From positions 1 through 64,000 of the forward strand of contig JAKQDH010000202.1 of NCBI GenBank assembly GCA_029558835.1: DNA of 64,000 bases. The letters are read 5' to 3'. The translations under genes were made by a program, and so were the position numbers. Numbering within the stretch: position 1 is the first letter of the stretch; the number at the start of each line of letters is the position of its first letter. The DNA comes from Planctomycetota bacterium. GTDB lineage: Bacteria > Planctomycetota > Phycisphaerae > UBA1845. The notes below the pieces were generated by a model. The model was given only the letters and a program-made list of their open reading frames with translations. It had not been told where the DNA came from and did no database searches. Shown here one piece after another: positions 491 through 62,703 of this stretch.

Positions 491-532
491 TCGACGTCGG
501 CCCCGGGTGGCCGACGCTACTCCTTCAACAGG
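491..532. repeat. Family C palindromic element
   Basis: GACGTCGGCC...GGCCGACGCTAC followed by TCCTTCAACAGG. The core is an inverted repeat (GTCGGCC/GGCCGAC). Nearly the same string, including the CTTCAACAGG tail, recurs at 18515-18560. Shorter copies lie at 19216, 24928 and 27957. Confidence 0.8.
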
Positions 533-1724: not shown

Positions 1725-4049
1725 TTACTTGTCCGTCGTGGGCAGCGGCAACTCGACATGGTACGGCTTGCCGGCCCGGAACAACTCCAGGCGCCGGCGA
1801 AGCAGTTCGGCGAACCGGTCATCCTCGGCGGCCTCGGCCAGGGCAAGTGCTTCCTGGGCGGCGGCCACGGCTTCCTCGAACTGTCCCGCCTCAGCCAAGG
1901 CCGTCGCGAGCGTCAACAGGACCGGGGCATGCGGCTCCGGCCGCGTGGCCATCAGCAACCGCGCCCACCGGACGGCCTCAGTGCCGTCACGAATGGCCGC
2001 ATCCGGGTGAGTCGCCAACAGCCGGGCGAGCGGGTCAAGCAGGGCCTGCGACGCGGAGTCACGATCGAGGCCGTCACGCAGGACCTGCACGGCGGCGGCC
2101 GGCTGCCCCGTGCCTGCCAGCAGGTCGGCCAAGCTCGCGCGCGTGGCCACTGAGTCCGGTTTCAACCGCAAGGCCCACTGGTACATGGTGACGGCCGCAT
2201 CGGTACTGCCGCCGAGGGCCAATGTCCGGGCGAAGTGGTCGGCCGTCACGGGGTCGAAGCGGTCGAGTTGCAGAGCCCGGCGATAGTGGTGCAAGGCACG
2301 CTCTAGCGCCGTCGCCCCGTTCTCGGCACCGGTGGCCCAGGCGCGCAGCGCGAGGGCATCCGCGTAGTTGGCATGGGCAAAGGAGCTTTCGGGGCTGACG
2401 GTCACGGCCCGGGCCCAGAGGGTCTCCGCGTCTGCCCAGTAGGCCGCCTGTCGCATCGTGGCGTGGATGAGGACGAAAACTACCAGCGCGATTACCAACG
2501 CGCCGACGGCGCGACGCGACTGCGGCGATGCGGCAGGGCCGGCCGACGGCAGGGCTGTGGCGGGCTCCCCACTTACCCTGCCCTCTCCCCCTGGGGGGAG
2601 AGGGGGAAGCGCAGTCCGGCGGTACCAAGTGAGCACCACGCCGCCAGCAAGCAACGCGAACCCCAGGCAGGACAGGTAGCTGTAACGATCGGCCACAAGT
2701 TGCGGGCCGCTCTGCGCGAAGCCCAACACCGGTGCCAGGATGATGACATAAGCGGCGAGCGCGGCGGGCACGCCCGGCCAACGCCGCCGCAGTGCCACAC
2801 CCGTCACAATGAGAATGACGACCACGACGGCGGATGCCCAAAGGCGACCGCCCAGCAGGACGTCGGGCGGTGGAATCTGATAGATCGGCCCCAGGTTCAC
2901 CGGCAAGAGCATCTTGCCTATGTAGAACGCCAAGCCCTGCGTCGCCTGGGCCAGACGCGACCACGGTCCATACTGCTGAAGCGTGTACAAGGCCCCGGCC
3001 GCCGCCTGCGCTGCCAGAGCACGCTCGGCGGCCCACAAGCCCAATAGCAGAAACGGCAGTTTCTCCAGCCACACCCGGCCGGCGTCCGCCGTGAACCAGC
3101 CGCGGCGACCGCCGAGCCGACGCAACGGATACACGTCCAACACGAGCAGCACACCGGTCAACGTCAGAGCCGAAGCCTTCGCCAGCAGCGAGACCGCACA
3201 CAGCACGACGGCCAGGATGTACCAGGTCTTGCAGCCATATACGGCCAACGCGGACTCGCGCTGCGATGTTGGCTGGTCTGCGAAGCCCGGAGTTTCCTCG
3301 GCGTCCCCGCTTCGCGGTGCGGAGGCATCAATGCAGGGTTGCGTGGCCGCGGTCTCCCCCCTCACCCTACCCTCTCCCCCCGGGGGGAGAGGGGTGATGT
3401 TCAACATCGGCGGGGCCTTGCCTGAGGCGTACTTCACGTAGCACAGTACGCTCAGCAGGTACAGGAAGGCGCTGAGTACGTCCCGTCGCTCCGCGATCCA
3501 CGCTACCGACTCCACGCGCAACGGGTGCACCGCAAACAGCGCGGCCGCGCAGGCCGCCGAGGCCCGCCACGCCACGGGTGAATGTGCGCTCTGTTCAGGA
3601 AGAGCAAGGCCCAGCAGGCGCCGCGCCACGAAGTAGAACGTCAGTGCGGCGAGCGTGTGAAGCAGTACGTTGCTGCAATGCAAACCGAAGGTGAGGTCCG
3701 GCCAGAGCACCCGGTCCACGGCGTACGTCACCCAGGTGAGCGGCTGAAAGTGCCCCCCAGCCCGAGTCTCCCACATCCAGCGCACGCCATCCGCATCGAG
3801 GGTCAGGTGTGGCAGGTTGCCCAAGACGAGTTGCTCGTCATCCCAGGCGACATAACCCGCCAGCAGTGCAGGAAAGAAGGCGGCCACCACCAGCAGGACA
3901 AGCAGGCACGGTAACACCCACGCCCACAAAGCGACCACGCGAGGGGACGTGGGGCGCGGCGTCACGGGCACGTCGCGAGGCGACGGCGCCTCTGCGTCAG
4001 GGCTCTGGGCCGCAGGCAGTGCCACTTCTACAGGCTCCGGCTTCAACAC
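1725..4049 (-). CDS. TMTC-like membrane glycosyltransferase with C-terminal TPRs
   Basis: Predicted polytopic inner-membrane protein of 774 residues. The N-terminal part carries WDDE at about 69-72 after the first membrane segment. It then has FAVHPLRVESVAWIAERRDV (about 172-191), typical of bacterial proteins related to eukaryotic TMTC O-mannosyltransferases (GT-C fold). Several further membrane helices follow to about residue 535. The remainder is TPR-like helical repeats (about 545-760). By family it probably transfers a sugar from a lipid-linked donor to a protein, but the acceptor is unknown. Two in-frame repeat-derived inserts interrupt it, at about 217-275 and 481-508; both contain LPPGGEGRV. 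The start is GTG at 4049, with no strong ribosome binding site. Confidence 0.8.
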   Translation of the reverse strand: MLKPEPVEVALPAAQSPDAEAPSPRDVPVTPRPTSPRVVALWAWVLPCLLVLLVVAAFFPALLAGYVAWDDEQLVLGNLPHLTLDADGVRWMWETRAGGHFQPLTWVTYAVDRVLWPDLTFGLHCSNVLLHTLAALTFYFVARRLLGLALPEQSAHSPVAWRASAACAAALFAVHPLRVESVAWIAERRDVLSAFLYLLSVLCYVKYASGKAPPMLNITPLPPGGEGRVRGETAATQPCIDASAPRSGDAEETPGFADQPTSQRESALAVYGCKTWYILAVVLCAVSLLAKASALTLTGVLLVLDVYPLRRLGGRRGWFTADAGRVWLEKLPFLLLGLWAAERALAAQAAAGALYTLQQYGPWSRLAQATQGLAFYIGKMLLPVNLGPIYQIPPPDVLLGGRLWASAVVVVILIVTGVALRRRWPGVPAALAAYVIILAPVLGFAQSGPQLVADRYSYLSCLGFALLAGGVVLTWYRRTALPPLPPGGEGRVSGEPATALPSAGPAASPQSRRAVGALVIALVVFVLIHATMRQAAYWADAETLWARAVTVSPESSFAHANYADALALRAWATGAENGATALERALHHYRRALQLDRFDPVTADHFARTLALGGSTDAAVTMYQWALRLKPDSVATRASLADLLAGTGQPAAAVQVLRDGLDRDSASQALLDPLARLLATHPDAAIRDGTEAVRWARLLMATRPEPHAPVLLTLATALAEAGQFEEAVAAAQEALALAEAAEDDRFAELLRRRLELFRAGKPYHVELPLPTTDK
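2567..2606. repeat. Family B element inside the TMTC-like gene
   Basis: ACCCTGCCCTCTCCCCCTGG followed by GGGGAGAGGGGG, an inverted repeat. It is read in frame by the minus-strand gene as a Pro/Gly-rich insert (LPPLPPGGEGRVSGE). Confidence 0.85.
3354..3394. repeat. Family B element inside the TMTC-like gene
   Basis: CCCCTCACCCTACCCTCTCC followed by CCCCGGGGGGAGAGGGG. It is read in frame on the minus strand as ITPLPPGGEGRVRGE. The insert continues for about 45 more residues of unusual composition before the membrane domain resumes at YILAVVLCAV. Confidence 0.85.
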
Positions 4050-6938: not shown

Positions 6939-6972
6939 GCCTGAACAGGCCCACCCAAACGGGAAACCGAGA

Positions 6973-7071
6973 GGGTGGCGTGCCCAAGCCGAAGGCGCCG
7001 GCATGCGGTTGCAGACGGCCGCTTCGAGCACGGGAAGAACCACGGCGGCGCTGCGCTTGGCCATGCCACCC
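6973..7071. repeat. Family A hairpin element (complete)
   Basis: This begins GGGTGGCGTGCCCAAGCCGA and ends GCGCTTGGCCATGCCACCC. The ends are inverted repeats and the interior continues the pairing imperfectly, giving one hairpin of about 100 bases. It lies between the convergent tatC and lutC genes and might also serve as a bidirectional terminator. Other complete copies are at 31673, 41279 and 62564. Confidence 0.88.
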
Positions 7072-18496: not shown

Positions 18497-18514
18497 GCGA
18501 GCGGCGCCTTTGTA

Positions 18515-18560
18515 GCCCTCCACGTCGGCCACGGGGGGCTGACGCTACTTCTTCAACAGG
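18515..18560. repeat. Family C palindromic element
   Basis: CCCTCCACGTCGGCCACGGG then GGGCTGACGCTACTTCTTCA and ACAGG. Nearly identical to the copy at 491-532, including the non-palindromic tail. It lies in the gap between the convergent porB and clpS genes. Confidence 0.85.
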
Positions 18561-18639
18561 CTGGAAGAGCGTCGAGAGTGGCCCCTCGCTTCCTCTCGGG
18601 TTCGGGCGCGTCGTGCGCGCGCCGGGCCGGTGACGGTCT

Positions 18640-19215: not shown

Positions 19216-19243
19216 CACGTCGGCCGCGGGGGGTCTACGCTAC
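19216..19243. repeat. Family C element overlapping a stop codon
   Basis: CACGTCGGCCGCGGGGGGTC then TACGCTAC. The final CTAC supplies the TAG stop codon of the minus-strand lipoprotein gene at 19240, so insertion may have set that protein's C-terminus. Confidence 0.75.
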
Positions 19244-24517: not shown

Positions 24518-25420
24518 ATGGCGCGGGTGCGGGTTCTGGTGGTGCGGGCGCCGGGGATCAACTGTGATGAGGAAACTGTGTATGCCTGGCAGGTGGCCGG
24601 CGCCGAGGCCGACCTCGTCCACGTGAACCGGTTGGTCGAGCAGCCTCAGCGTCTTGACGACTACCAGATTGTGACGTTCCCCGGGGGCTTCAGCTACGGC
24701 GACGATATCGCCGCGGGCGTCATTCTCGCGCAGCATGTCACCCTGCACCTGGCGGAGCGGATGCGCGAGCTTGTGGCGCGCGGGGGCGGGCTGCTGGGCA
24801 TCTGCAACGGTTTTCAGGTGCTGGTGAAGGCGGGGCTGCTGCCCGACGGGGCTGCGCCGACCTCCGGCAGCGTGCCGGAGACCAGCCGGACCGCCGTTGA
24901 TGCCGTAGAGACCGGCGCGTTTGAGGCCCCCTACGTCGGCCACGGGGGGCCGACGCTACCTCTTCAGCGGTCTCTTGGCACGGGCGGCGGGCGGCAGGTG
25001 ACGGTGACCTTCAACGACTCAGCCAGGTTCGAGGCGCGGTGGGTGCGGTTGGAGGTTACGACGGAGCACTGTGTATTCCTGCGGGGCGGCGAGTTGCTCG
25101 AGCTTCCGGTTGAACACGCGGAGGGCAAGGTTGTGACGGCCGATGATTCGGTCATTTCGGCACTGCGGCAAGGCGGCCACGTGGCCCTGCGTTACGTTGA
25201 TCACGATGGGCGCAGCGACAGGTATCCGGCCAACCCGAACGGCAGCGTGGCCGGTATTGCGGGGCTGTGCGATTCGACCGGCCGGGTGCTGGGCCTCATG
25301 CCGCATCCGGAACGTCACCTGGATGCCACCCATCACCCGCTATGGACCCGCCGGGCACCCGGCGAGCCGCCGGACGGACTGAAGATTTTCCGCCGGGCCG
25401 TTGAGCACTGGAGCGCATGA
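24518..25420 (+). CDS. purQ: Phosphoribosylformylglycinamidine synthase glutaminase PurQ, with repeat insertion
   Basis: The glutaminase subunit that feeds ammonia to PurL. Class I amidotransferase features are present: FPGGFSYGDD (54-63), the nucleophile Cys96 in GICNGFQ and the His/Glu pair in MPHPERH near the C-terminus. The protein has 300 residues, against roughly 230-260 in most relatives. The excess is an insert at about 116-158, between GLLPDG and GGGRQVTVTFNDSARF. Part of it (APYVGHGGPTLPL) is the in-frame translation of a family C repeat. The catalytic residues remain intact, so the enzyme is probably active. GGAGG lies 10 bases upstream of ATG 24518. Confidence 0.93.
   Translation: MARVRVLVVRAPGINCDEETVYAWQVAGAEADLVHVNRLVEQPQRLDDYQIVTFPGGFSYGDDIAAGVILAQHVTLHLAERMRELVARGGGLLGICNGFQVLVKAGLLPDGAAPTSGSVPETSRTAVDAVETGAFEAPYVGHGGPTLPLQRSLGTGGGRQVTVTFNDSARFEARWVRLEVTTEHCVFLRGGELLELPVEHAEGKVVTADDSVISALRQGGHVALRYVDHDGRSDRYPANPNGSVAGIAGLCDSTGRVLGLMPHPERHLDATHHPLWTRRAPGEPPDGLKIFRRAVEHWSA
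24928..24967. repeat. Family C element inside purQ
   Basis: CCCTACGTCGGCCACGGGGG followed by GCCGACGCTACCTCTTCAGC. This is the same core and tail as the intergenic copies at 491 and 18515, here read in frame by purQ without a stop codon. Confidence 0.9.
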
Positions 25421-27775: not shown

Positions 27776-27870
27776 GACACCCCTCCCTTCCAGGGAGTGG
27801 CGCGGGAAGGGTCGGACCCCAGCGGTGTCCCCCCTCACCCTACCCTCTCCCCCAAGGAAAGAGGGGTTCT
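27776..27870. repeat. Two adjacent family B elements
   Basis: The first reads ACCCCTCCCTTCCAGGGAGT then GGCGCGGGAAGGG. The second, at 27828-27870, reads CCCCTCACCCTACCCTCTCC then CCCAAGGAAAGAGGGG. They lie in the gap upstream of the DUF1579-like gene. Confidence 0.75.
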
Positions 27871-27956: not shown

Positions 27957-27986
27957 CCACGTCGGCCACGGGGGGCCGACGCTACA
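27957..27986. repeat. Family C element
   Basis: CACGTCGGCCACGGGGGGCC then GACGCTAC, the full family C core, 22 bases before the RDD gene's stop codon. Confidence 0.85.
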
Positions 27987-30513: not shown

Positions 30514-31704
30514 CTATGGCGTCAACGAGCGGTGCAGGGCAAGCAGGCTGAAGGCGACGCCGTAGGGCCGGTCGTAGCGGTGCACGTCGTAGTCCCACAT
30601 GGAGCCGTCTTCCTGCTGGGTCTTGAGGATCTCACGGCACAGCTTCGGCCACCACTGGGCCTGTTCCTCGGGCGGCAGGGTGGCGATGACGAGGCCGGCG
30701 TAGTAGTGCCCGAACAGGTAGAAGTAGCCGGAGTTGTAGTAGTACGCCTCGTGCGGGACCGGCTTGTGCATGGCGATGTCGAGGAACTTGTGCTCGCGGA
30801 AGAAGTGCGTGAGGCCGAAGCGCCGATCTTCGAGGGGCACGTCCCGGCCGGCGGCCAGCAGGGCCGCCTGACAGACCTGGATGCGGGACAGGGAGCCCTT
30901 TACCTGGTCAATGTACTCCGAATGCAGGTTCGGAATAACGCGGGCGTGGTAGGAGTAGGCACCGTTGGGCAAGCGGCAGCGCTGGACGAGACGGACGGCC
31001 CGGTCGATCACCGCCTGATCGACAATGAAGCCCTGGCGCTTGGCGTCTTCCATGGCCACGACGGCGGCCGCAGTCATGAAACTCGTGGACCACTGGGGCC
31101 GCTGGGTGCGCGGGACGTCAAACGCAAGGTAGCCCCAACCGCCGTCAACGGATTGAAAGTGTGCCAGCGCGTCGAAGTACTTGGGAACGGCCGCGGCGAT
31201 TTGCTCATGGATGGCCGGCGCGGCGTAGCGCGGGTGCCCGGCCGCGGCCGCCAGACCCTGCAACCCGTAGATGTACGCCCAGTTGTTCATCAGGTCCCAC
31301 TCGTTGGGACGTTTCACGTCAGCGTTGTGGAGCAGGTACTGCACGGCGCGGTCGGTGGCGTCGGCGGCCTCCGGCGGCGGGCCAACCTCGAGCAGGGCGG
31401 CCACGCAGAGGCCGGTGGTGGCCACTTTCCAGGCGCGATGGGTCTCGGGATTGGGCCACATCTCGCCGGACCAGGTGGTGATGGAGTCCTGCGGGCCACC
31501 CCAGGAGCCATCGGAGTTCTGGTCCTGCACGAGAAAAGCGACCGCGCGGGTAATCGAATCGTGTACGCTCTGCGGGTCGGGCGCGTTGGCCACGTCGGCC
31601 GCCAGCACAAAGGACACAAGCCAGAGCAATGCGAGGATCGGTACACAGGACGACGCAAGTGGCGCACCGGGAGGGTGGCATGCCCAAGCCGAAGGCGCCG
31701 GCAT
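30514..31704 (-). CDS. Prenyltransferase/squalene-oxidase-like repeat protein, exported
   Basis: The mature part resembles the alpha/alpha-barrel of prenyltransferase and squalene-cyclase repeats ([50 protein letters not shown]). No DxDD cyclase motif was found, so catalysis is doubtful; planctomycetes have many such exported proteins. A hydrophobic segment [17 protein letters not shown] precedes the barrel. The start is a puzzle: the only ATG close to it, 31704, lies inside a family A element (giving [13 protein letters not shown]). GTG or TTG codons inside the signal peptide are alternatives. The element probably replaced the original 5' end. Confidence 0.7.
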
Positions 31705-31771
31705 GCTGCGGCAGAAGCCGCCTGCTTCTCCGGGAGAAGGCATGGCGGCGCGGCGCTTGGCCATGCCGCCC
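31673..31771. repeat. Family A hairpin element at the 5' end of a gene
   Basis: GGGTGGCATGCCCAAGCCGA to GCGCTTGGCCATGCCGCCC, about 100 bases. It overlaps the candidate start codon of the prenyltransferase-like gene and is open in that gene's frame. Confidence 0.88.
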
Positions 31772-31849
31772 CATCCCACCTGCTTGCTCCGCCATTGCGT
31801 CGAGCCACTTAGCGTAGCCCCGTCGAGGGAAGGTCGAAGGGCGTTGGCA

Positions 31850-31891
31850 CCCCCTCTCACCTTGCCCTCTCCCCCCAGGGGGAGAGGGATA
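31850..31891. repeat. Family B element
   Basis: CCCCTCTCACCTTGCCCTCT then CCCCCCAGGGGGAGAGGG, between the prenyltransferase-like and coiled-coil lipoprotein genes. Confidence 0.85.
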
Positions 31892-41133: not shown

Positions 41134-41609
41134 GGTTTTGCTCCGGTGCGTCTCGCGCGGGGCATGATACCCGCCGGCCGGGGCGAGGGGGAGACGGTTC
41201 TCCGGACGACGGCGTCAGGGGTGGAGACGGCCCAAAAGCCGACTATACTAGATGGGACGACGCTCAAGGGGGGCCTAGTGGGCATGCCCAAGCCGAAGGC
41301 GCCGGCATGCCGGGAGGTAGACCGACATACGGTTACCGATGGTAGCGTCGGGCAAGCGGAGCAGCATGGCGGCGTTGCGCTTGGCCATGCCACCCCGCTA
41401 TGTCGGTCGGTTTTCCGATCGAGTGGACCCATTCCGTCGGGGTGAGAACTCGACCGTCAGCACGGGGGGTTGGCCGTTCGTGCCTCCTGGACCGGCGGTC
41501 CGCGTTAACGAGCTGTCCCGCGAGTCCGGGCTGCCGGGAAACCAGGGCGCGGTGAGGCGCACCGGGTACTGGGCAGGAACCGGATGGACGGGACGGACTT
41601 GCGGGACGC
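41134..41609. other. Divergent intergenic region containing a family A element
   Basis: 476 bases between the acyl-CoA dehydrogenase and radical SAM genes. It must hold both promoters; no reliable boxes were recognised. The centre is a family A element; the rest shows no coding signal I trust. Confidence 0.5.
41279..41395. repeat. Family A hairpin element
   Basis: GTGGGCATGCCCAAGCCGAA then GGCGCCGGCATGC at one end, and GGCGTTGCGCTTGGCCATGC then CACCC at the other. About 117 bases, slightly longer in the loop than the other copies. Confidence 0.85.
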
Positions 41610-55274: not shown

Positions 55275-56936
55275 TCACTCGCCAGAGCCGCGCGCCGGGC
55301 CCTGTTGGCGCTTCGCCACCAGCTCCAGCGTCTGATTCACCGCCACCTTCTTCGCCACGGTCACTTCCCCATCGGGCCAGCGCACCGCCACCTCGTCGAC
55401 TTGCAGCGCCGACCCCAGCCCGAAGTTCGGCCGGGCGTCACCCTGCGACAGGTAACCCATTACGCCACTCACCTCCTGCACCATCCCCATCCCGTTGGCC
55501 GTAACCGTTACCCGCGCCCCCAGTGCCTCCATCTTCGTATCCGCCCGTCGCGGGACAACTTTCAGCCACCTACTGCCGTTTCCGCCGTTATTACGCAGCA
55601 GCTTCGCCGGCCCGTTGAGGTTCATGACCAGAATGTCCGTGTCGCCGTCGTTGTCGTAGTCGGCAAACGCCGCCCCCCGACCCACGTACTTCTCCCGGAA
55701 GTACGGACCCGACTGGTCCGCCACGTCCACGAACCTCCCCTTCCCGTCGTTGCGCAGGAGCACGTCTTCCTCGGCGTACTCATGATGCGCGTCGCCGTTA
55801 GCGACGAATATGTCCAAGTACCCATCGTTGTCATAATCGATCAGACCACCGCCCCAACCGGTGTACTGCCCACACGCGACGGCCACGTTGCTTGGTGCCG
55901 TCACGTCCACGAACGTCTTTCCCTCGTTCAGCAGCAGGCAGCCGTACCCCATATCCGGGATGAACACATCGAGAAACCCATTGCGATCCACGTCGCCGAT
56001 CACCGGCCCCATTGACGATGCCCCCTGGCCACCCTCGCCAAACGCCAGCCCCCAGACCAGGGCCTGCTCGGTGAAATGGCCCTTGCCGTCATTCACAAAG
56101 TAGCAATTGGGCGTCGCGTCGTTGCTCACGTAAATGTCCAGGTAGCCGTCGTCGTTCAGGTCCGTGGCCACCGCACTCATCGCCCGGCCATCTGGGAAGT
56201 ACACACCGGCCTCCCGGGTCACGTCGCTGAATGTTCCGTCGCCATTGTTGCGATAAAGGCAGTCCGGCTGCGCCTTGTAGCTCAGCGGGCCGGGGTACCC
56301 GGCCGCCGGGTAGTAGTCGCGGAACTTCCCGGCGTCGTACTCCAGGTAGTTGGCCACGTAAACATCGAGGTCCCCATCCCGGTCGTAGTCCAGCCACGGT
56401 GCCGACAGGCTCCAGCGCGCGTCGTCCAGGCCGGCAGCCTGCGACACATCCGTAAACGTACCGTCGCCGTTGTTGCGGTAAAGCACATTGGGCCCGTAGT
56501 TCAAGACGTACAGGTCCAGGTCGCCGTCGTTGTCATAGTCGGCCGCCGAAGCACCCATGCCGTAGTGCTCCGCGTCGCCCACCCCGGCCGCGGTCGTCAC
56601 GTCCGTGAACGTGCCGTCGCCGTCGTTCCGGTACAACGCGTTCGACAGCTTGCCGCGGAGGTCGCGGCCCAGGTTGTCGCTGACCTCCCGCAGCCAGCAG
56701 CCGTTCACGAGGTAGAGGTCGAGATAACCGTCGCCGTTGTAGTCGAAGAACGCGCAGCCCGGCCCCGAGCCCTCGACGATGTTACTCAGGTTGTGGTCGC
56801 CGAAACTATGCTTGAACCGAATGCCGGCCTGCTCAGTCACATCCGTGAAGGTAGGAAGCACTGCCTCAGCCGCGCCGGCACCGGCAACCAGCGCACCCAG
56901 CGTGAACATCCAACGAAGGTGCCGCACCTTACTCAT
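55275..56936 (-). CDS. CRTAC1-like protein: FG-GAP repeats plus ASPIC/UnbV
   Basis: 553 residues, signal peptide then FTDVTEQAGIRFKHSFGDHN, the standard N-terminus of CRTAC1-type proteins. Seven or more VCBS/FG-GAP repeats with Ca-binding DxDxDG loops follow (DYNGDGYLDLYLV, DYDNDGDLDLYVL, DYDRDGDLDVYVA), predicted to form a beta-propeller. The C-terminal UnbV domain includes GARVTVTANGMGMVQEV and PNFGLGSALQVDEVAVRWPD. Such proteins are exported and bind Ca; their molecular function is poorly known. Its start overlaps the HzsA-like gene's stop as ATGA, and its stop precedes the decaheme gene by 17 bases. Confidence 0.92.
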   Translation of the reverse strand: MSKVRHLRWMFTLGALVAGAGAAEAVLPTFTDVTEQAGIRFKHSFGDHNLSNIVEGSGPGCAFFDYNGDGYLDLYLVNGCWLREVSDNLGRDLRGKLSNALYRNDGDGTFTDVTTAAGVGDAEHYGMGASAADYDNDGDLDLYVLNYGPNVLYRNNGDGTFTDVSQAAGLDDARWSLSAPWLDYDRDGDLDVYVANYLEYDAGKFRDYYPAAGYPGPLSYKAQPDCLYRNNGDGTFSDVTREAGVYFPDGRAMSAVATDLNDDGYLDIYVSNDATPNCYFVNDGKGHFTEQALVWGLAFGEGGQGASSMGPVIGDVDRNGFLDVFIPDMGYGCLLLNEGKTFVDVTAPSNVAVACGQYTGWGGGLIDYDNDGYLDIFVANGDAHHEYAEEDVLLRNDGKGRFVDVADQSGPYFREKYVGRGAAFADYDNDGDTDILVMNLNGPAKLLRNNGGNGSRWLKVVPRRADTKMEALGARVTVTANGMGMVQEVSGVMGYLSQGDARPNFGLGSALQVDEVAVRWPDGEVTVAKKVAVNQTLELVAKRQQGPARGSGE

Positions 56937-58957: not shown

Positions 58958-61900
58958 GGCTGCGCATCCGTGTTCGGCACTCGCCCGGGTTCGGTTTGCA
59001 GCCGACCCACTGTGCAGCGTGCCGGCCGCGTGTTGTATTCACGCAGGTAGGCCTGGTGCGCCGCTGTGTCCGGGTAGTGCTCCGTGTCCGGGTACGGATA
59101 GCTGCTCATCCCGTGAAACGGCAGCGGCGTAACACTCTCGGAGCACTTCGTGTTCAGATCGCCGTCCTTCACCCACCCATTCGCGTAGAATATGTAGTCG
59201 CGACTCCACCCGGGCGGCAGCGCCGGCACCCCGGCCGCGTCAAACTCGAGCAGCAGCTCATCGCCCGACGTGAATATCACGTACCGATCGTCCGGCGCCC
59301 GCAGCAGCTCCTCCACGGGACCATAGCGCGTATACATCCCCGGCGCCGGGTCCCACGAGCCCGTCTCGCTCACGTCGTCGTAGTCAAACCGCTCGAACCC
59401 GAAAGCGTCGGCCTGCATCCGTGAGAAGCCCCGGTAGTGGAGCTGCGCCCGGGCGACCGGCAACTCCGTCTGCCGGCAGCGCCCCGGCTCATCACGGGTG
59501 CCCACGAAAATGCGGTCGAAATATACACACATATTCGTGGCCAGCCGGACGTGGAAATCGCCCCCTGCGAACTGTCCACTGAGGTCCACGGGGACGATGA
59601 GCCCCTTACTGGTGGGCAGTCCTACTGACTCGATGGCCGTGCGCCAGACGCCGTTTGCGTCGCGTACCTGCAAGCTCAGCGGCGCGCTCGCGTACCGCGG
59701 ATCCTGGGCGATCGCGATCACCGCGCTGGACTCCGACCAGTAGATCCAACTATCAAGGAACAGGATGATGCGCTCCGCCCCGCGCAGGTCACCAAAGTCC
59801 AGCGTCAGGCTGTGCGGCTCGGCCAGTCCTTCATAGGCCGTCACCGGGAACACCGGGCAGCGCTCATCGTGTTCGAGAATCAACGGGCGCACGTCCTTAC
59901 CATCCTGGTCGACGGCGGTCACCGGCGGCCGGGCGTCTGCGATCGCATAGAACCGATCCTCGGGAAACGGCGGGGTCGTGAAGTACTCGTTCGGAATGAT
60001 CTCCAGATTCTGCGGATGGTCGATGACGCGCAGCGTAATCTGATCGGCAAACGTGATCTCGCGCAGCTCCTCCGTCAGGCGTAACTGATATACGCCGTCG
60101 CGAGAAACTAGCTGCGTCCCCGTTATGCGGGTCAGCTCCGTGCAGTCCGGCTGATAGTACACGCCCGGCGCCATGGGCACGCCCAGCGGCCCGATCCCGA
60201 GAATCTCGTTGACCAGCTTGAAGCCGCTGCCGTCCCAGGCATACAGAAACGCACACGATGCCGAGACCTTGACGTACTCCTCGACGGTGAGCACCGCGTC
60301 GATCGGCGGGCGGATGACGTTCTGCGCGACCCCGTTGGGCCACGTCACGCGCACCACGTCGACCTGCGTCAGATCACCCAAACCGAAGTGCAGCGGCCCC
60401 TCGGTGTACGCCTGCTTCTGATAATACCCCGGCGCCGCGACCTCCACCGTCGCCCCGATACCGCTGCGGTTGACCTTCTTGCCCGCCAGTCGCACGCCCA
60501 GCCAGTGCCGCTTGGGGCTTTCGTTCCGCAGCACCAGCGGGCCCCTGTCCAGCGTGTGGACGACCAAGTCCATGTCGCCGTCCCCGTCAAGGTCCCCCGC
60601 CGCAACGTCGGCCACCCAGCTAAACCCGTCGTGAGCACCGGCCCCCAGGTCGAGTGGCGTTGATGCACCCGCGAACCGCCCCGGCCCAGTTCCGGCCAGC
60701 ACCCGCAATGCCCCGCCCTCATGCACGAGAAGGTCGCTCCAGCCGTCGTTGTTGCAGTCCACCACCTGCATCAGACCCAGCAAGCGCAAGTCGCCGAGGT
60801 CAATCGCCTCTCCCTGAAACCGTGCCTTGCCATCGTTCACGTACAGGCGCAAATGAGGCTCGCAGGCGGAGCAGCCTGTCGTCACTAAGTCGAGATTACC
60901 ATCCCGATTGAAATCCCCGACTGCCACATCGGCTATGCTGTCATCCAACGGCGGCGAGAACCCACCGCCTGCCACCAGCTTCCCAAGCCGCGCATTCACA
61001 AGCAGCCTTGACGGTGCACCCTCGTTGCCGATGAAAAGATCCACGTCGTGGTCACCTTCAAAGTCTGCTGCCACCACAGCACGGGTCTTATCGAGTCCGT
61101 CCAGCAGCCCGGCCGCATCCGTACAATCCGCAAACGTCCCGTCGCCATTGTTGCGCAGCAGCGTATTGAACTGCCCCGGGAAGTCGTCCGGTATCCGCAC
61201 CTCGCTCGGTCGCTCCTCCTTCGGTTCTGGGAACTCGATGTAGTTGGCCACAAAAATGTCCAAATCGTTATCGTGGTCGTAATCGACAAACGCAGCCGCC
61301 GCGCCGTACTGCGGCTCGTTCGCCCGGGCAGCCTCGGAGACATCCTCGAATGTCCCGTCGCCTTTGTTACGGTAGAGCACGTTAGGACCGCAGTTCACTA
61401 CGTACAGATCGAGGTCGCCGTCATTGTCGTAGTCGCCGAAGATCGCGCCCGTTCCCATCCCGCGATCCCCGACAGCGGCCCGCGCCGTTACGTCCACAAA
61501 TGTTCCGTCCGCGCGGTTTTCATACAGCACGTTGGCCGATCGCTCGGGTTCATCAGAGCAGTTGACGACATAGATATCCAGATCGCCGTCCTCATCGAAG
61601 TCCGCGAGCGTAACTGCATTACCCTCCCATGGCACGTGGTAATTACGCAGATGCTCCCGTGTATCGCTGCCTGGTAACGGAATGTAGGACGACATGATCT
61701 GCCGCACAGCCGGCCCATACGTCCCCGGCTTCGGCAGCCCAACGTCGTCCGTCACCTCGACGAAGCGAGTCTGCGTGTCGAGCGCCGGGGCAGCGGTCGC
61801 AACGGCCGACGCCACCTCGAGGATGTACGTGTACCTGCTCCGCTCCAGCGCCTCGGCCGTCTTCTCGGCCTCGGAGACGGTGTCCTTGACGCGATCGTAG

Positions 61901-62541
61901 ATTTCCTTGTGCCGCTCGGCATTGTCCACCTGGCCGAGCCGGCGGTAGAGCGTGATGAGCTGGTAGTGCGTGCTGGGGTCCGTCGGTGACAGCTCCGCCT
62001 TCTTCTGGAACGCCCCGACGGCCTTCTCGTACTCTTGCAGGAACTTGTAGCAGACACCGAGGTTGTAATAAGCCCCCTCGCACTGCGGGTCACGTTCGAT
62101 GACCGCCTGGAGAGCCGCCACCGCCTCAGCAAACCTGCCCTCGCGCTGCTGGATGATCCCGCGGAGGTAGTACGTGCCGATCAGGGTGGGGTCCAGCTTA
62201 TGCGCCTCATCCAGCCACCGCAACCCCTCTTCGTGCTTCCGCGCCCGCATGAGCACCAGCGCCAGGTTGAAGCGATCGATCGCCGACTCCGGCTTCAGCT
62301 CGACGCAACGCGCAAACTCCGCCGCCGCTTCTTCGAACTTGTCGTTCTCGTAGTACGCCTTACCCAGCAAGCGGTGACTCTCCACCTCACGTTGCACCTC
62401 CGCCTGCTGCGCACCGGGCGCGGTTGCACGAGGCCCCGGCGCCTGCTTTGGCTCTGCCGCGGCGACGCATACTCCGGCCAGCACGCAACCGACTGCCACC
62501 CACGCCCACCGCGTTGTACCACGTGAATGGCTCCACCCCAT
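58954..62541 (-). CDS. TPR/FG-GAP/UnbV protein with shared C-terminal module
   Basis: 1195 residues from ATG 62541. A signal-like segment (WAWVAVGCVLAGVCVAAAEP) is followed by five to six TPRs (about 40-245), FG-GAP repeats with DEDGDLDIYVV and DYDNDGDLDLYVV (about 320-680), an UnbV-like domain (LHFGLGDLTQVDVVRVTWPN) and a 430-residue C-terminal module from LYAWDGSGFKLVNEI. The last is also in the 43899-47978 protein (shared VYFDRIFVGT/VYFDQVFLAA, TRYGPVEELL, MSSYP near the end). The frame could start at ATG 62703, directly after the upstream stop, but that would add 54 residues of translated family A element before the signal segment. ATG 62541 lacks an obvious ribosome binding site. Confidence 0.85.
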   Translation of the reverse strand: MGWSHSRGTTRWAWVAVGCVLAGVCVAAAEPKQAPGPRATAPGAQQAEVQREVESHRLLGKAYYENDKFEEAAAEFARCVELKPESAIDRFNLALVLMRARKHEEGLRWLDEAHKLDPTLIGTYYLRGIIQQREGRFAEAVAALQAVIERDPQCEGAYYNLGVCYKFLQEYEKAVGAFQKKAELSPTDPSTHYQLITLYRRLGQVDNAERHKEIYDRVKDTVSEAEKTAEALERSRYTYILEVASAVATAAPALDTQTRFVEVTDDVGLPKPGTYGPAVRQIMSSYIPLPGSDTREHLRNYHVPWEGNAVTLADFDEDGDLDIYVVNCSDEPERSANVLYENRADGTFVDVTARAAVGDRGMGTGAIFGDYDNDGDLDLYVVNCGPNVLYRNKGDGTFEDVSEAARANEPQYGAAAAFVDYDHDNDLDIFVANYIEFPEPKEERPSEVRIPDDFPGQFNTLLRNNGDGTFADCTDAAGLLDGLDKTRAVVAADFEGDHDVDLFIGNEGAPSRLLVNARLGKLVAGGGFSPPLDDSIADVAVGDFNRDGNLDLVTTGCSACEPHLRLYVNDGKARFQGEAIDLGDLRLLGLMQVVDCNNDGWSDLLVHEGGALRVLAGTGPGRFAGASTPLDLGAGAHDGFSWVADVAAGDLDGDGDMDLVVHTLDRGPLVLRNESPKRHWLGVRLAGKKVNRSGIGATVEVAAPGYYQKQAYTEGPLHFGLGDLTQVDVVRVTWPNGVAQNVIRPPIDAVLTVEEYVKVSASCAFLYAWDGSGFKLVNEILGIGPLGVPMAPGVYYQPDCTELTRITGTQLVSRDGVYQLRLTEELREITFADQITLRVIDHPQNLEIIPNEYFTTPPFPEDRFYAIADARPPVTAVDQDGKDVRPLILEHDERCPVFPVTAYEGLAEPHSLTLDFGDLRGAERIILFLDSWIYWSESSAVIAIAQDPRYASAPLSLQVRDANGVWRTAIESVGLPTSKGLIVPVDLSGQFAGGDFHVRLATNMCVYFDRIFVGTRDEPGRCRQTELPVARAQLHYRGFSRMQADAFGFERFDYDDVSETGSWDPAPGMYTRYGPVEELLRAPDDRYVIFTSGDELLLEFDAAGVPALPPGWSRDYIFYANGWVKDGDLNTKCSESVTPLPFHGMSSYPYPDTEHYPDTAAHQAYLREYNTRPARCTVGRLQTEPGRVPNTDAQP

Positions 62542-62563
62542 GGAGAAAAGAGGCCACCGAACT

Positions 62564-62662
62564 GGGTGGCATGGCCAAGCGCAGCGCCGCCATGTTCTCG
62601 CCTGGGTGAGGCGCTGGTTTCCGGCACGGCATGCCGGCGCCTTCGGCTTCGGCATGCCACCC
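62564..62662. repeat. Family A hairpin element inside the operon
   Basis: GGGTGGCATGGCCAAGCGCA to GGCGCCTTCGGCTTCGGCAT then GCCACCC. Inverted orientation relative to the 6973 and 31673 copies. It occupies the junction between the last two genes at the right end of the operon and is open in the frame of the downstream gene. Confidence 0.88.
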
Positions 62663-62703
62663 TCCCGGTTTCCCACCAACCTGGTCCTGTTCAGCGCGTT
62701 CAT

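Follow-up and report, generated by a model that had tools for sequence, protein, structure and literature searches.

Introduction

Protein-coding palindromes are best known from Rickettsia, and in the literature that we found the transposase that mobilises them is not identified there. The Rickettsia palindromic elements (RPEs) are palindromic repeats of ~100-150 bp that lie in frame in housekeeping genes, where their peptide is tolerated (Ogata et al. 2000, 2002, reviewed in PMC10969869), and fusions between MITEs and RPEs have been reviewed as well (PMC10969869). A CGTC tag has been reported for the RPEs of R. conorii (PMC3733652). GTAG repeats have been described in the PVC superphylum including Planctomycetes, and intragenic REPs had been catalogued earlier in other bacteria, the inserts being single REPs, dimers or groups (PMC3733652, 2013). 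Intragenic palindromic repeats are already known from these RPEs and intragenic REPs, and the MITE that we describe here, located within the essential purine-synthesis gene purQ of an uncultured planctomycete, is a new variant of them.

When compared with the RPEs, the purQ element is likewise palindromic, in frame in a housekeeping gene and apparently tolerated as a peptide, and a second case, in hydE, involves the same REP family but another type of element. The purQ element is nevertheless not an RPE. It bears a GTAG tag rather than CGTC (PMC3733652), the latter occurring here within the stem, its host belongs to a different phylum, two of 137 copies are convincingly internal to genes whereas nearly half of the RPEs are, and, judged by the ends and the target duplication, its mover would probably be an IS1182-like transposase. 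The likeness to RPEs that the original prediction had drawn thus describes how the element acts, not what it belongs to, since the element itself is a MITE, with ends of the IS1182 type and a GTAG REP. With intragenic GTAG REPs it shares the GTAG hairpin, a mainly intergenic distribution and occasional in-frame copies in genes (PMC3733652), but the purQ REP is embedded in a 107-bp MITE bounded by TIRs, while the insert in hydE belongs to the dimer type. With IS1182-family MITEs it shares TIRs and a 4-bp duplication, features also seen in the complete IS1182-like elements of two genomes from the same GTDB family, but it carries a REP hairpin, and we saw no similarity between its interior and the transposase gene, short of a systematic search. 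Finally, inverted REP pairs of fixed length, most commonly 81 bp and one of them in hydE, occur in the same genome and recall REPINs (PMC3116915, 2011), whereas the purQ element is a single REP with TIRs.

The long loop of PurQ

The window, that is, the whole stretch of 64,000 nucleotides analysed here, is part of contig C62 of a draft genome of 5.69 Mb in 224 contigs, which is ~91% complete. The gene of interest is:

24518..25420, plus strand: purQ, phosphoribosylformylglycinamidine synthase subunit I, 300 aa (Pfam, TIGR01737, Foldseek)

The protein matches GATase_5 (Pfam, E=2.2e-74) and, above the model cut-off, TIGR01737 FGAM_synth_I (E=5e-58), and its Foldseek matches are FGAM synthetase structures (best E 2.4e-20), including Salmonella FGAM synthetase and Thermotoga PurQ; purL lies immediately upstream. 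The catalytic triad and conserved motifs of class I glutamine amidotransferases are present, with Cys96 and His263 invariant in a 62-sequence PurQ alignment and Glu265 kept in the window PurQ, and we confirm that the reading frame is preserved and that these three residues are intact.

We observed that the loop between LLP and QVTVT spans 50 residues, in contrast to 5-7 in all measured orthologues of the same family. The surplus is 43 residues, or 129 nt, slightly fewer than the ~45 extra residues first proposed. Across 103 PurQ the loop ranges from 3 to 50 residues, the window PurQ being the longest, and because of this variation the site is intrinsically tolerant. The relatives compared were Phycisphaerae and other Planctomycetota, the nearest belonging to the same GTDB family; upon tblastn against 60 of them, nearly every relative matches the window PurQ as residues ~1-112 and ~154-300 with the middle absent, in agreement with the expectation that orthologues lack the segment. 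We also looked for the same segment in orthologues without family C, the repeat family described below, a finding that the original prediction had named as its refutation. Five long-loop PurQ were found, all beyond the same GTDB family, and since their 38-46-residue inserts in the same loop differ in sequence from the window segment, the prediction survives. The purQ genes of two other Phycisphaerae (L180 and L188) have 46-residue loops at this PurQ site without family C.

An AlphaFold2 model of the window PurQ, built with 62 sequences, has a mean pLDDT of 86. Values below 50 occur only at residues 122-156 and most of the remainder is a confident PurQ fold, the insert scoring 43-53 versus mostly >90 elsewhere in the fold. 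The model predicts that the insert is a disordered, flexible loop, consistent with the surface position that had been anticipated for it.

A 107-bp MITE family with an internal GTAG REP

The core of family C is present in ~128 copies with ≤3 mismatches in the 5.69-Mb genome, 20 of them exact; the reversed control pattern has 0 copies in the same genome, and 0.00 core matches are expected in the shuffled window. Apart from purQ, the window contains:

495..520, plus strand: family C core, 2 mismatches (window core search)
18502..18563, plus strand: right half of a family C copy, right TIR intact (core search, BLAST)
19218..19243, plus strand: family C core, 3 mismatches (window core search)
27960..27985, plus strand: family C core, the same as the purQ core letter for letter (window core search)

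The best-kept copies form a 107-bp unit that consists of CAGCCTGTTGAAGAA, ~51 nt, the REP core CGTCGGCCRCGGGGGGCCGACGCTAC and TTCTTCAACAGGCTG. The 15-bp TIRs CAGCCTGTTGAAGAA and TTCTTCAACAGGCTG are perfect in clean copies, and nearly all TIR matches in the genome are paired at a spacing of 105-109 bp. Using the 107-bp consensus, BLAST detects ~20 near-full-length copies in the window genome. Seven others were compared and have none: in six the match is confined to the REP core region, and the seventh has no match. The repeat unit is this TIR-bounded element; the palindrome, which had been taken for the mobile unit, is one part of it. Next to the copies lie YTAR-like 4-bp flanks that are directly repeated: among the 16 best copies, five have identical direct flanking 4-mers versus 1.06 expected by re-pairing flanks (p=0.00045), 11 agree at ≥3 positions, and none has identical 4-mers in inverted orientation.

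The fold of the consensus strand is one closed hairpin (z=-6.4), and just within the right end lies a GTAG-type REP on the minus strand, composed of GTAG, an 8-bp stem CGTCGGCC/GGCCGACG and a 6-nt loop. Its stem pair 6-17 covaries (94 G-C, 14 C-G), with 108 paired versus 85.7 in shuffles. The arrangement is that of GTAG REPs, in which the tag stands at the foot of a stem-loop with a stem of 5-13 bp and a loop of 2-20 nt, and the copies are, as in those, many and mostly intergenic with inverted pairs common, few having two coding flanks. We found no match in Rfam. With its TIRs, a target duplication at the level of the family, a short length without a transposase gene, and an IS with the same ends, the family C element is a 107-bp MITE that carries an internal GTAG-REP hairpin.

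A symmetric variant was observed in genome G026, arranged as TIR-REP-spacer-REP-TIR and ~125 or 144 bp long including YTAR (e.g. C63:5830-5954 and C542:197-340). There are ~259 TIR matches in that genome, and its REP stem is the variant CGTCCGCC/GGCGGACG.

Candidate transposases

The extended end YTAR-CAGCCYGTTGAAGAA occurs in hundreds of copies in relatives, most commonly in G026, G030, G028 and G005. Two genomes of the same GTDB family carry an IS with these ends. In G024 (L269 1505-3015) a complete 1511-bp IS reads ctag-CAGCCTGTTGAAAAA...TACTTCAACAGGCTG-ctag and encodes a 464-aa transposase with DUF772 and DDE_Tnp_1, for which the best NCBIfam model is IS1182, at 199 bits and under the curated cut-off of 270. 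In G021 (L277 1392-2919) a 1528-bp IS reads ttag-CAGCCTGTTGAAAAA...ttag, and its transposase is 82% identical to that of G024. Since both genomes contain complete IS1182-like elements bordered by the ends and the type of target duplication seen in family C, an IS1182-like transposase is the probable mover, and judging from these shared ends and duplication, this transposase family probably moved the MITE in trans. The two IS1182-like elements are apparent autonomous partners of the MITEs.

Within the window genome we found no intact IS with family C ends, just a distant degenerate transposase fragment, and PF13586 (IS5-type transposase) is absent. Ten PF01609 genes were considered as the mover and rejected, being without family C ends. 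Six Y1_Tnp genes were likewise rejected as RAYTs for the GTAG REP: across these six loci of the ~91% complete genome, no flanking REP copies were detected. A RAYT gene flanked by REPs is frequent among GTAG REPs, though not strictly defining for them.

The purQ copy and its origin

Within purQ we delineate the following features:

24851..24867, plus strand: left linker (alignment of relatives)
24868..24974, plus strand: 107-bp MITE copy, no indels versus the consensus (BLAST and ungapped comparison)
24868..24882, plus strand: left TIR, decayed, 10/15 to CAGCCTGTTGAAGAA (TIR comparison)
24934..24959, minus strand: GTAG-type REP (genome copies, compensatory stem change)
24960..24974, plus strand: right TIR, decayed, 10/15 to TTCTTCAACAGGCTG (TIR comparison)
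24975..24991, plus strand: right linker (alignment of relatives)

The 107-bp consensus aligns to C62:24868-24966 with 79% identity over 99 nt (BLAST, E=1.5e-17), and 82 of 107 positions are identical without gaps. A family C copy does lie inside the insert, as had been proposed, but the element is shorter than the span of 24860-24995 first given, the rest being linker. The proposed identity of core and tail with the copies at 491 and 18515 does not hold either: 2 and 1 bases, respectively, separate its core from theirs, and the right end matches the TIR at only 10 of 15 positions. The 26-nt core is one base off the consensus. In the fold of the copy (z=-0.9) the long palindrome is gone and the REP core is intact. 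The insert exceeds a clean 111 nt by 18 nt, a surplus that we attribute to the left and right linkers; comparison by eye gave nothing convincing for a direct duplication of the flanks as its source. As the flanking 4-mers are CCGG and TTGG, no target duplication is visible in this copy.

The central proposal, that a mobile palindromic repeat was inserted in frame into purQ, against loops of 5-7 residues in the same family, is upheld. Very likely, a 107-bp non-autonomous MITE, which bears a GTAG-REP hairpin in its interior, entered the PurQ loop by transposition behind GLLPDG. An IS1182-like DDE transposase would have moved it in trans, its autonomous copy presumably being lost later from the window lineage; the inserted peptide would serve as a tolerated, mostly disordered linker, and the terminal palindrome, and mobility with it, would have decayed after insertion.

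It is improbable that the REP hairpin alone was inserted, by a transposase of the RAYT type (Y1 tyrosine) working on single-stranded DNA, and that the MITE-like surroundings are coincidental. The gapless match to the whole MITE extends well past the 26-nt core, and GTAG REPs flank none of the six Y1 genes. In favour of this reading are the presence of those genes, the TIR-less REPs and REPIN-like inverted pairs of 81 bp in this genome, the REP-pair nature of the insert in hydE, and the match of the purQ TIRs at just 20 of 30 positions.

Less probable still is domestication, with the insert selected for a role in PurQ (contacts in the PurL/PurS complex) or for mRNA regulation through its hairpin. 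The open frame, the 0 indels over 107 bp at ~23% divergence from the consensus and the core just one base off would fit such a role, but the core is kept in copies outside genes too, the RNA fold of the insert is no better than shuffles (z=-0.17), and AlphaFold2 gives low confidence there. Furthermore, the substitutions in the copy are spread 9/8/8 over the codon positions, and in 14 of the 18 codons affected the change is non-synonymous, a pattern with no sign of selection on the insert peptide. Given the even substitutions and the predicted disorder, the insert is most likely tolerated junk in a loop, not useful.

A metagenome assembly artefact that joined the repeat into purQ is hardly credible: the draft has 224 contigs and repeats cause misjoins, but the reading frame runs through both junctions, the element keeps its boundaries, and the copy has diverged, with no identical copy among those compared. 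Ordinary loop expansion without mobile DNA, any similarity to family C being due to chance, is refuted by the sequence match (a 26-nt exact match versus 0 expected, and the 99-nt alignment), for all that this loop is long (46, 42, 38 residues) in a few lineages without family C.

Frame preservation and insertion into genes

A clean family C insertion is frame-neutral, since 107 bp plus the 4-bp duplication make 111 nt, or 37 codons. purQ reads the element from one base inside, which is sense frame +1; among the 22 best copies this frame is almost always stop-free, while stops are usual in the two remaining sense frames. The MITE persisted in purQ because its length preserves the frame and its site is a floppy surface loop. 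There is a slim chance of something broader, that the lengths (107+4 bp as 37 codons, the 81-bp REP pair as 27 codons) and the stop-free frame reflect selection among selfish elements for harmlessness in genes, and that across planctomycetes unrelated palindromic repeats land again and again in flexible loops such as those of PurQ.

Gene insertion by these repeats is rare in the window genome. A codon-usage screen of 137 copies yielded two convincing internal cases, purQ and hydE. Thirty long ORFs over other copies are not demonstrated gene insertions, because in none of them do Pfam matches flank the repeat on both sides. Three further screen matches were discarded as terminal overlaps, at the C-terminal tail of a cytochrome oxidase-like protein (L116), the N-terminus of a nuoC-like gene (L023), both named by reading the sequence, and an N-terminus (L129); a fourth (L086) is an ORF without a Pfam match. 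In hydE (L078, G000:C157:54782-57807, minus strand), which encodes a [FeFe]-hydrogenase maturase (TIGR03956 HydE, 8e-97), an 81-bp inverted REP pair is in frame, and residues ~230-280 are absent in eight relatives with HydE. This length is the modal one for inverted REP pairs (10 of 22) and a multiple of three.

Other PurQ inserts were also observed. The PurQ of G026 (L162 3430-3680) has a long in-frame insert in a different loop, after ~residue 190, and within this insert lies a palindromic repeat of 35 nt that recurs dozens of times in G026. In the purQ of another relative, G012 (L058), there is an in-frame insert at a similar place, whose peptide resembles translated repeat DNA (...NRHSTIENF...). 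With purQ, hydE and the G026 PurQ as cases, in-frame palindromic insertions are not limited to Rickettsia. The purQ case offers a defined element with measurable ends, a duplication whose length accounts arithmetically for the preserved frame, and relatives in which complete ISs share those ends. The seeding of new protein segments by small mobile elements thereby becomes an idea that can be tested on one particular gene and with one particular transposase. For annotation the case is a warning: where an essential enzyme has an insert seen nowhere else, this may be mobile DNA and not a functional domain.

Other repeats in the window

Two further dispersed palindromic families were observed in the window. 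The first, of ~127 nt and with the core GGCATGCCCAAGCCGAAGGCGCCGGCATGC, lies at 6945-7071, 31645-31771, 41281-41434 and 62525-62690; the second, CCCTCTCCCCC...GGGGGAGAGGG, at 2560-2605, 3349-3394, 27822-27867, 31844-31889 and other positions. Repeat arrays in coding-like sequence (GTCGCCGTCGTTGTCGTAGTCGGC...) extend over 55620-56760 and 61133-61618 and resemble calcium-binding repeats of the FG-GAP/VCBS type.
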